From assembly GCA_011050075.1 (NCBI GenBank), contig DRGK01000017.1, forward strand, positions 1-39,837: a DNA stretch of 39,837 nt, given 5' to 3'. The notes under the pieces are model-generated. The model had not been told where the DNA came from. It ran no database searches and saw only the letters and a program-made list of their open reading frames with translations. Shown in pieces: positions 30,534 to 34,310 of this stretch (its first letter is position 1; each line of letters starts with the position of its first letter). This stretch comes from Candidatus Jorgensenbacteria bacterium (lineage in GTDB: Bacteria > Patescibacteriota > Minisyncoccia > UBA6257 > GWB1-50-10). The position numbers were made by a program, and so were the translations under genes.

Positions 30534-31655
30534 TTATATTGTTTCCGCGTGTTTTTCGTTCTGATTTTCCAAGAACTGCATAACGTGTTCATTGGTTAGT
30601 AATGAGCGTACGTAGTCTGTGAGTGCCTCTATCTCTGCATCGGGATGGCGCGCACGGAGCATCTGTACATTTTGCTCAACTTCTTTAGGGTCTAGCGTAA
30701 TATCTTCTTTTTTGCCGATAGCTGTTAAGACGAGTTTCAATTTGAATTGGCGTTCAATATGGTCACGTTGTGCCCGCATAAACACTTCTTCTGTTTGGTT
30801 GGTGCGTTTGAGATACTTTTCAAGTGTCGTGTTGTTCTGCTTCAGTTCACTCATAAATCGTTCTTTGAGGATATTCATCTCATTATCAAGAACGATGTCA
30901 TGAATGGTTAGTTTTGTTGCCGCTATAAGCGCCTTGGCGAGCGCATCGCGCCTCTTTCGCTGCATCGCGATGATCTTATCTTGTTTTATAGTATCTTGTA
31001 TCTTTATCCTGAAATCTTCTACGTTCTTGAATGAGCCGAGTTTCTGTACAAGCGTGTCGGTAAGTTCAGGAAGTTCTTCATTTTCTTTTGTAGTTGAGAG
31101 TGGTTTCCCTTCGGTATCGACGAGACCGGTACCGTCTTCTTGCTTGGTTTTTACGTCTGTGGATTGTGCGTGCATGCGTATAATATCATTGATGACATTT
31201 TTTACCTCTTCGTCGGTTGCTTCCGTTTTTTCCACGGACTCCAATTTAATCGTGTCCTTAGCTACTTTTTTGTAGTTTGGTAATTTGACCTCTGGAGTGA
31301 TGCCGACACGTAAGGTAAAGCCGAGTGGATTGCCGAGAGCGAGCTTGGTAATTGTTACCTGTGGTGCACTCATTACATCAAGTTTGTGTTCGTCAACGAT
31401 TGCCGGATATGCTTTATTAAGTGCACGATTGGCTGCATCTTCCAGTATCTCTTCTTCACCGACACGTTTGAGTATCTCCTCATCGGAAGCGTGTCCTTTT
31501 CGGAATCCTGGCACCTCAATATCTTTACGCCTCGCGTCGAGTGAGCGCTTACGGTATTCTTGCATTATCTCGGTCGGTATTTCACCTTGAATATCAGCAA
31601 TCCCATCTTTACCGATATCAACTTTCACGTTTGTAAATAGTTTTTTGTTGTCCAT
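30534..31655 (-). CDS. tig: Trigger factor lacking the PPIase domain
   Basis: IEVPGFRKGHASDEEIL ribosome-binding signature; LPNYKKVAKDTIKLESVEKTEATDEEV and ELPELTDTLVQKLGSFKNVEDFRIKIQ flank where the FKBP domain would be. Confidence 0.9.
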   Translation of the reverse strand: MDNKKLFTNVKVDIGKDGIADIQGEIPTEIMQEYRKRSLDARRKDIEVPGFRKGHASDEEILKRVGEEEILEDAANRALNKAYPAIVDEHKLDVMSAPQVTITKLALGNPLGFTLRVGITPEVKLPNYKKVAKDTIKLESVEKTEATDEEVKNVINDIIRMHAQSTDVKTKQEDGTGLVDTEGKPLSTTKENEELPELTDTLVQKLGSFKNVEDFRIKIQDTIKQDKIIAMQRKRRDALAKALIAATKLTIHDIVLDNEMNILKERFMSELKQNNTTLEKYLKRTNQTEEVFMRAQRDHIERQFKLKLVLTAIGKKEDITLDPKEVEQNVQMLRARHPDAEIEALTDYVRSLLTNEHVMQFLENQNEKHAETI

Positions 31656-31749: not shown

Positions 31750-31777
31750 TTGATAATTTTTTCCATGTATGTATCAT
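31750..31777 (+). promoter_or_regulatory. Candidate promoter of the propeptide/peptidase gene pair
   Basis: TTGATA (31750-31755) - 16 nt - TATCAT (31772-31777). Confidence 0.45.
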
Positions 31778-31800: not shown

Positions 31801-32634
31801 ATGAAAATAATAATTATTTTTATTGTGGTGCTGTTTTTATCAACGGTATTTATAGTTTATGCTCAGGATGATTGTCCGATGAACGATCAATTCCTTTCTA
31901 ATGATGCACTTAGTAGTAGCATTTCGTTTTTTTCGAATCTATGGGAAAAGAGTGGTACTAGTAATCCTAGTTTTTATCCGACTTTTTCTCCCTTCTTCAT
32001 AGAAGAAGGTTTTTCTCCCGAAAGTTTTATTAACTCCGGTGGTAGTCCGGAAAAGTCAGCCTTGTGTTTTATAAAGCATTACCCAGATATTTTTAAGTTG
32101 GATAATCCAGATGAGGAATTAGAGGTAGTCCAAGTTACAGAAGATGATGTAGTAGGATATACCCACGTAAAACTTAACAGAATCTTTAAGGGGATTCCGG
32201 TGTTTGCAAGTCAGCTGATTATCCACTTTAACCAAGAAGGCCAAGTTAGTAGTTTTAATGGTAATTATCACCGTTCTTTTACTATATCCTTAGAATCAAC
32301 ACTTAGTGCTGATGAAGCAATTAAGATTGCTAAAAAAGACGCAGGTAGTCCAGCTAAAAAAGTTGCTACTGGCTTATTGATTTATCCTAAGCAACAATCT
32401 TATTTGCTCAGTTGGGGGGTAGACTATGCGCAGTCTGATGGGCCAACATTGGGATATATTATTGATGCTCATACGGGAGAAGTTCTTTTCAAGGATCCTG
32501 GGATTCGAACCGCAGGTGGTGCGTTGGCTGATAGAACTCCGCCTCTAAAAGAAAAAAGCGCTATGTATGTACTGCTTGGATTCATCGTTTTACTGATAGC
32601 CATATTCATTGGTTGGAGGGTTTTTAAAAAATGA
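31801..32634 (+). CDS. Secreted/membrane-anchored FTP-PepSY-like propeptide protein without peptidase domain
   Basis: Signal peptide; VVGYTHVKLNRIFKGIPVFASQLIIHFNQEGQVSSFNGNYH...LSADEAIKIAKKDAG...LSWGVDY...YIIDAHTGEVLFKDPGIRTAGG (as in M4 propeptides); C-terminal TM YVLLGFIVLLIAIFIGWRVFKK. Confidence 0.65.
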   Translation: MKIIIIFIVVLFLSTVFIVYAQDDCPMNDQFLSNDALSSSISFFSNLWEKSGTSNPSFYPTFSPFFIEEGFSPESFINSGGSPEKSALCFIKHYPDIFKLDNPDEELEVVQVTEDDVVGYTHVKLNRIFKGIPVFASQLIIHFNQEGQVSSFNGNYHRSFTISLESTLSADEAIKIAKKDAGSPAKKVATGLLIYPKQQSYLLSWGVDYAQSDGPTLGYIIDAHTGEVLFKDPGIRTAGGALADRTPPLKEKSAMYVLLGFIVLLIAIFIGWRVFKK

Positions 32635-34310
32635 AAAAAATAATAGGTGGTTTAATAATAGTTCTGGTAATTATTACAGGATTATATTTTTGGAGCGCAC
32701 AACAAAATGGTGGCAGTGGGGTTCAAATAGTATTAGGAGAATTGTCTCTATCTGATCAGCCGATCTTAAATACGCTAGTTACAGTTACCCTAATCCTTAT
32801 CCCTGAAGTAGATATCCCTAATTACCCCGCGAGCATTGAAATTCCGAATAGCTTTGAACTAGTTAGTGGCTACTTAGATCGGCAAGTGAATTTGAAAGCG
32901 CGTGAGGAGTTCAAAATTGAGGCCATAATTAAACCAACGGAAGTAGGACATTATAAATTAAGAGCAAGCGTCGGTGACGACCTTTATGTAGAGGTTATAG
33001 GGGACAATGGTATGAGTGATATGAGTATAAGCCAATTCGGAAGCTGTAAGCCGTTGGTTTATAAGGGTAGCATTAGCAATAAGATTAACTTTGTTTTTAT
33101 TCCTGCTGAAGAAATGCAAAACGAACAAGAACTCGTTAATTCTGTAAAAGATTTTTTTGATGAAAACAAAGAAAGCTCTTTTTATACAATTTATCCTTAC
33201 AGTGAGTATAAAGATGATTTTAATTTCTTTTATCTGGATGAATATAGCAATCTTGAGAACCTAAGAACTATTAAGAGGGTTCTAATGGAAAAGTGTCCTG
33301 GTTTATCAAGCAATATTTATCAAATTATTTCTACTGGTTCACAAATTAGAGGCACAGGGCATGATTATCTTAGAACCATAAACAAAATAGGATATCAGTC
33401 CATAAGTTCTTATAGTAAATCTAATTTACATACATTTTTGCATGAGATAGGTCATTCTTTCGGAGGACTGGACGAGGGTTATGGTAAAGGATTTACTTAT
33501 GATTTAACCAGTATATCAGGCGTAACCGATTACAAGAAAAATTACAATGATAATTCAGACCTTCCACCAAACTGGGACATTGAAGGTTGCCCCAAGTGGT
33601 GTTCGGGCCAAATCAATACCAATTCGGTATGTTATGAAGATTACATAAGCTTGAAACGCTGTTTATTGTCGTCTGAAACTGATAATGATAAGGAAGCACA
33701 GGATTGTGTTATGGCATTTGATAATACTCTTGAAGGCATGAGGGTAATGATTTATCCGCATGAGTGTGATTTCGGCATAAATTGCGTTGACAACACCAAT
33801 TGCTGGTTTGTAGGTAATGGATATTTTAGAGCATACGCTAGAGATCTCATGTATTCCGGTAGCGATGACTTCGGCATCATAACAAAAAGTTACGGTCCTG
33901 CTGGAGGTAAACAGCTGAAAGAGACGATTGAGCTCTTAAAATTGTGGATCTATCAAAAAAATAATTTGAGAGAAGTGCATTTTGAAATTGTAGATAGCTA
34001 TTTTCACAGTTTTAATGACAGAGATGAAGTTTATATTGAGTTCGGGTTATCAGATTCTACGGGTAATACTCTATCTATCTTCAAAGACGAGATGCTAGAT
34101 AACGTCTTTTCTATAAAATATAAAAAGTCTGGGGAACCAACCTATTTCGATGTAGGGGTTAATAAACGCTTAGGTGGGAACTATTATGTAGCCGCCACAG
34201 AATATAGAAGCGAAAAAGATTTACCCCCCGATCGATTAGATTTTATTTTTGCAATGGAACTTCCTAGGTTTAAAAAAACATGGAGTTTTGTGCTAAATCG
34301 AAATAATTAA
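32631..34310 (+). CDS. Membrane-anchored zinc metallopeptidase, M64 (IgA peptidase)-like
   Basis: N-terminal TM IIGGLIIVLVIITGLYFW; FLHEIGHSFGGLDEGYG resembles the M64 HExGHxFxxLxDEY signature; Cys-rich region after the active site; ATGA overlap with the upstream gene. Confidence 0.7.
   Translation: MKKIIGGLIIVLVIITGLYFWSAQQNGGSGVQIVLGELSLSDQPILNTLVTVTLILIPEVDIPNYPASIEIPNSFELVSGYLDRQVNLKAREEFKIEAIIKPTEVGHYKLRASVGDDLYVEVIGDNGMSDMSISQFGSCKPLVYKGSISNKINFVFIPAEEMQNEQELVNSVKDFFDENKESSFYTIYPYSEYKDDFNFFYLDEYSNLENLRTIKRVLMEKCPGLSSNIYQIISTGSQIRGTGHDYLRTINKIGYQSISSYSKSNLHTFLHEIGHSFGGLDEGYGKGFTYDLTSISGVTDYKKNYNDNSDLPPNWDIEGCPKWCSGQINTNSVCYEDYISLKRCLLSSETDNDKEAQDCVMAFDNTLEGMRVMIYPHECDFGINCVDNTNCWFVGNGYFRAYARDLMYSGSDDFGIITKSYGPAGGKQLKETIELLKLWIYQKNNLREVHFEIVDSYFHSFNDRDEVYIEFGLSDSTGNTLSIFKDEMLDNVFSIKYKKSGEPTYFDVGVNKRLGGNYYVAATEYRSEKDLPPDRLDFIFAMELPRFKKTWSFVLNRNN

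Follow-up and report, generated by a model that had tools for sequence, protein, structure and literature searches.

A two-gene locus between tig and rplJ

The window, a stretch of 39,837 nucleotides from a Candidatus Jorgensenbacteria genome, carries two genes on the + strand, ORF1 (31801..32634; 277 aa) and ORF2 (32631..34310; 559 aa), which overlap in the sequence ATGA such that the TGA stop codon of ORF1 occupies 32632-32634 and the ATG start codon of ORF2 occupies 32631-32633. Inspection of the sequence revealed a Shine-Dalgarno-like GGAGGG (32615..32620, + strand) inside ORF1, 10 nt 5' of the ORF2 start, and a promoter-like TTGATA-16-TATCAT (31750..31777, + strand) upstream of ORF1, the latter a weak candidate from a scan whose total equalled that of shuffled sequences. 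An Rfam search at the ORF1-ORF2 junction found no RNA leader, its sole match being a tRNA downstream of rplL. The two genes are probably transcribed together. Their GC contents are 37.3% (ORF1) and 35.6% (ORF2), versus a gene mean of 43.9 ± 3.4%, and among ORFs of at least 150 aa in the same genome they rank in the bottom 5% and 2%, respectively, for GC and in the bottom 2% and 5% for GC3. Such values are compatible with acquisition of the pair, although low GC can also stem from the amino-acid composition of secreted proteins.

The pair is flanked by tig (trigger factor, opposite strand) and by rplJ, encoding L10, which is followed by rplL; coordinates, overlap and GC/GC3 all agree with the AT-rich, ATGA-linked gene pair between tig and rplJ described in the initial annotation. 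Together, tig and the pair sit between dnaJ and rplJ, genes that are adjacent in 17 loci of the family, with dnaJ upstream in the same direction and mostly within a few hundred bases. The site of the pair resembles an insertion separating these two genes. tig itself (window positions 30534-31655) also separates dnaJ from rplJ, genes that directly adjoin in relatives. The genome assembly totals 526 kb, spread over 18 contigs, and is 91% complete; from this small size, the organism may be a Patescibacteria-type episymbiont.

ORF1 resembles an M4-type propeptide without a peptidase

ORF1 is predicted to comprise, in order, a signal peptide, an FTP domain, a PepSY domain, a C-terminal transmembrane helix and a basic tail. 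Hydropathy analysis placed signal or transmembrane segments at residues 3-21 and 253-271, corresponding to a signal peptide at residues about 1-21 and to a transmembrane helix (32557..32613, + strand) that is followed by basic residues. The FTP domain (32113..32268, + strand; residues 105-156) scored 52-56 bits against PF07504, with E = 5.7e-14 and 52.1 bits in the Pfam search and a curated cut-off of 21. The PepSY domain that comes after it (32302..32487, + strand; residues 168-229) gave a marginal match to PF03413 (E = 8.8e-5; 23.2 bits, 0.8 bit below the curated cut-off of 24), and a fold match spans both domains. No peptidase domain was matched in Pfam, and ORF1 contains neither an HExxH motif nor an M4 catalytic domain.

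Across FTP and PepSY, ORF1 aligns with protease propeptides encoded elsewhere in the phylum, and a profile of five other propeptides, with ORF1 left out, recovered ORF1 from six-frame translations of its own genome at E = 1.2e-16, the next-best stretch of that genome reaching E = 4.5. The predicted model of ORF1 was of fair quality between residues 81 and 230, its core, where pLDDT was mostly 65-85. A Foldseek search with this model placed the propeptides of vibriolysin MCP-02 (4.5e-7) and fungalysin (5.3e-7), together with YpeB, ahead of all other structures, with YpmB also among the matches. Searched against the PDB sequences, a profile of ORF1 and the propeptides matched thermolysin and Mcp02 and nothing else. 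Every annotated plasmid match of ORF1 at E < 0.02 was an M4 protease. ORF1 therefore shares domain order, fold and core sequence with the M4/M36 propeptides of vibriolysin MCP-02, thermolysin and fungalysin, but unlike these it ends in a transmembrane helix and lacks the M4/M36 catalytic domain. Taken together, the Pfam, leave-one-out profile, fold and hydropathy analyses uphold the original description of ORF1 as a protein with a signal peptide, FTP/PepSY and a C-terminal transmembrane segment and no peptidase, and they indicate that ORF1 is a predicted full FTP-PepSY propeptide of the M4 (thermolysin) kind, apart from any enzyme.

ORF2 resembles a divergent M64 metzincin

ORF2 carries an N-terminal transmembrane helix (residues 4-22 by hydropathy) plus HEIGHSFGGLDEGYG, and its regions, read along 32631..34310 on the + strand, are this helix, a beta-rich N-terminal part, an M64-like metzincin region at residues about 150-440 and a beta-rich C-terminal part, making it a candidate membrane-tethered M64-like metzincin. 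The zinc site HEIGHSFGGLDEGY (33441..33482, + strand) includes H271, E272, H275 and D281, followed by E282 and Y284, residue roles being assigned by comparison with PMC12237041. Within it, HEIGHSFGGLD (H271-E-I-G-H275-S-F-G278-G-L-D281) conforms to the metzincin motif HExxHxxG/NxxH/D. A probable Met-turn, DLMYSG (33843..33860, + strand), was suggested by alignment, in which M407 corresponds to a Met in relatives, the ORF2 model being poor (pLDDT 40).

On its own, ORF2 fell below every curated Pfam cut-off, matching the M64 family PF09471 at E = 0.014 and 15.1 bits (cut-off 26). A match to Glyco_hydro_17 (E = 0.0044, under its cut-off) was rejected as a chance match because both the profiles and the fold indicate M64. 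G011, from the same family, is an M64-like relative with 25% identity to ORF2; ORF2, G011 and relatives in the class have in common the zinc-site region and a conserved Trp (W323), and ORF2 and its relatives also share a Cys/Gly-rich stretch preceding the shared Met. A profile of six relatives, with ORF2 left out, recovered ORF2 at E = 4.6e-20, a test that is not fully independent since the relatives were found with queries including ORF2. The same profile matched the M64 structures 3p1v (2.4e-14) and 4df9 (3.9e-13). When the AlphaFold model of ORF2 was searched with Foldseek, ranks 1-17 were all M64 enzymes; as the model is poor, these fold matches are supportive only.

The motif of M64 enzymes, HExxHxxxGxxD, exceeds the metzincin motif by one residue, and a Glu that binds a structural zinc and a Tyr come after it (PMC12237041; motif also in PMC12402451). 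Like the M64 (igalysin) enzymes T. ramosa IgAse and BF3526, to which it is similar in profile and fold, ORF2 has the HExxH helix and an Asp as third ligand followed by Glu. ORF2 does not contain the M64 motif, however: it has HExxHxxGxxD, with the Asp one residue nearer, and an extra Gly between the Glu and Tyr, giving D-E-G-Y versus D-E-Y in M64 (PMC12237041). The shorter spacing is found in most relatives, while L009 has the M64 spacing. Because of this spacing and the extra Gly, we refer to ORF2 as M64-like rather than M64, and sequence and model together indicate that it is a divergent M64-like metzincin and not a canonical one. Of the initial annotation of ORF2, the N-terminal transmembrane helix stands and the likeness to M64 holds through the relatives' profile and the fold, whereas the PF09471 cut-off was not reached and the canonical motif is absent. 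The profile homology expected for the pair was likewise recovered, with FTP above its cut-off, PepSY just below it and M64 homology seen via relatives and fold.

Distribution of the pair and search for another client peptidase

Conservation was surveyed in samples of 42 family, 286 class and 380 phylum genomes, counts that include the genome under study. FTP was found in none of the other 41 family genomes or the other genomes of the class sample, and in four other genomes of the phylum sample, always within ORFs of at least 764 aa. Where these long ORFs could be read, they contain HExxH domains that look like M4, L016 (2772 aa) being more divergent. The class sample has 6 genomes out of 286 with M64-like genes and the phylum sample 10 out of 380, both figures including the own genome. 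No FTP adjoins any other M64-like gene in the class and phylum samples; one genome, G319, has both, on different contigs, and a Pfam scan of ten neighbours of other M64-like genes detected neither FTP nor PepSY. The pair was not found again in the family, class and phylum genomes, nor by scans of wider genome contigs, viral contigs or plasmids. It is thus a single-genome observation, and the adjacency of ORF1 and ORF2, whose absence from related genomes the initial annotation had itself named as speaking against its proposal, is not conserved across the genomes sampled.

The own assembly was read throughout, apart from the final 0.7 kb of contig 17. A three-sequence M4 profile gave nothing above noise in its six-frame stretches; among the controls this profile found L015 at 2.6e-48 and missed the divergent L016. 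HExxH is present in eight reading frames of at least 150 aa, namely ORF2, two M50-like frames, one HtpX-like, one deformylase-like and three others without a secretion signal, with labels taken from motif context rather than family search. From this survey, no HExxH zinc peptidase other than ORF2 is evidently secreted in the assembled sequence examined.

A membrane-anchored propeptide may regulate ORF2 in trans

The reading we favour, at about even odds, is that ORF1 is a membrane-anchored, propeptide-derived regulator acting in trans on the neighbouring ORF2, in the manner of YpeB on SleB or SUB1-ProM on SUB1. The fuller scenario, that an M4-type propeptide was detached, anchored in the membrane and recruited to control an M64-like metzincin as a split zymogen at the cell surface, is put forward tentatively. 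The overlapping genes would be made together as a two-protein, membrane-tethered protease module, in which ORF1 would be anchored by its C-terminal helix and ORF2 by its N-terminal helix, both facing outward. ORF1 may bind ORF2 and keep it inactive or aid its folding, and a signal or proteolysis of ORF1 may then release ORF2. Binding of ORF1 to ORF2, the direction of its effect (inhibitor or foldase), the substrate and any role in host contact are all inferred. Trans regulation is favoured by the propeptide identity of ORF1, the M64-like identity and intact catalytic motif of ORF2, the topology signals of both proteins, the gene overlap, the GGAGGG, the failure to detect an M4 domain in the own genome and the finding of no further evidently secreted HExxH peptidase there. 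Against it, other M64-like proteins, including that of the same-family G011, do without an FTP partner, and only a single genome shows the adjacency; in addition, the M4 search relied on a profile that missed its divergent control and on an assembly about 91% complete.

Other readings of the locus would dispense with this regulation. ORF1 could be a PepSY-type envelope protein that stands alone and has a partner other than ORF2, the overlap reflecting operon packing only, and PepSY proteins can indeed target non-proteases, as CopD acts on penicillin-binding proteins (PMC10653890). The presence of YpeB and YpmB among the fold matches and the M64-like relatives that lack an FTP partner agree with this reading, which we nevertheless regard as unlikely, given that ORF1 has FTP besides PepSY, that its annotated plasmid matches are all M4 proteases and that a peptidase gene overlaps it. 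To our knowledge, YpeB has no FTP domain, unlike ORF1.

It is quite improbable that the two genes came together by chance after acquisition, each acting alone and ORF2 serving as a surface protease like its relatives. The scattering of M64-like genes across the phylum and the insertion-like site between dnaJ and rplJ would fit such a history; the four-base overlap, the matched base composition and the lack of another target peptidase seen in the own genome argue against it. The least probable of these readings makes ORF1 the remnant of an M4 peptidase gene, its catalytic part replaced by a hydrophobic tail and without a regulatory role. A stand-alone FTP relative was found nowhere else in the family, class and phylum samples, and ORF1 is AT-rich with an acquired look, both as would be expected of a remnant, yet its frame of 277 aa is intact, with a signal peptide and a conserved FTP core, its transmembrane helix is well formed and followed by basic residues, its stop codon overlaps the ORF2 start, and M4 sequence was not found in the own genome.

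Comparison with known propeptide and PepSY systems

Propeptides are usually regarded as private chaperone-inhibitors of their own enzyme. In Bacillus, sleB and ypeB form one operon (PMC6660665, PMC13393411), YpeB is needed for the stability of SleB, and a portion of the protein is able to inhibit SleB in vitro (PMC6660665). Like ORF1, YpeB is a separate PepSY protein encoded beside a hydrolase gene (PMC6660665), while SleB, unlike ORF2, is a spore cortex-lytic enzyme and not a peptidase. SUB1-ProM of Plasmodium is encoded by a free-standing propeptide gene that adjoins subtilase genes and is a potent inhibitor of SUB1 in trans (PMC6993865), similar to ORF1 in being a stand-alone propeptide-like protein whose gene adjoins protease genes. 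SUB1-ProM and its target belong to the same family (subtilases), unlike ORF1 and ORF2, and the abstract on SUB1-ProM mentions no membrane anchor. The trans action of such parts is already known, and the novelty lies in pairing an M4-type propeptide with a metzincin; we found no precedent in the literature for an M4 propeptide that targets a peptidase outside its own family, which also weighs against trans regulation. Whether PepSY is a portable regulator was asked in 2004 by Yeats et al., as cited in PMC6393860. If trans regulation is correct, a stand-alone FTP-PepSY protein linked to a peptidase from a different family would demonstrate that FTP-PepSY is such a portable regulator, the pair would provide a compact two-protein system for testing this portability, and a regulated surface protease would have been named in a reduced-genome lineage with little-known secreted enzymes.

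Other M64-like genes in the phylum

Several M64-like genes of the phylum have same-strand neighbours a few bases away (L049:4346-4909, L091:223-882, L092:3717-4637, L092:6490-7314 and L051:1536-2552), which combine a transmembrane helix with a predicted extracytoplasmic part, are of differing kinds and, where scanned, lack FTP/PepSY. A membrane-anchored partner may thus be recurrent for M64-like genes in the phylum. In L092:4641-9340, M64-like genes are duplicated in tandem and alternate with small transmembrane proteins. Two related M64-like proteins, L051:2560-3546 (L011) and L087:4463-5518, have HLVGH and HLLGH, respectively, replacing HExxH; the catalytic Glu is lost and they therefore look like inactive homologues. 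The M64-like proteins L002:1039-2904 and L090:5906-7984 have dockerin-like repeats near the C-terminus, with a Pfam match to Dockerin_1 at E = 4.2e-7 in one M64-like relative, and the upstream neighbour of the M64-like gene in L090 ends in a similar dockerin-like repeat.
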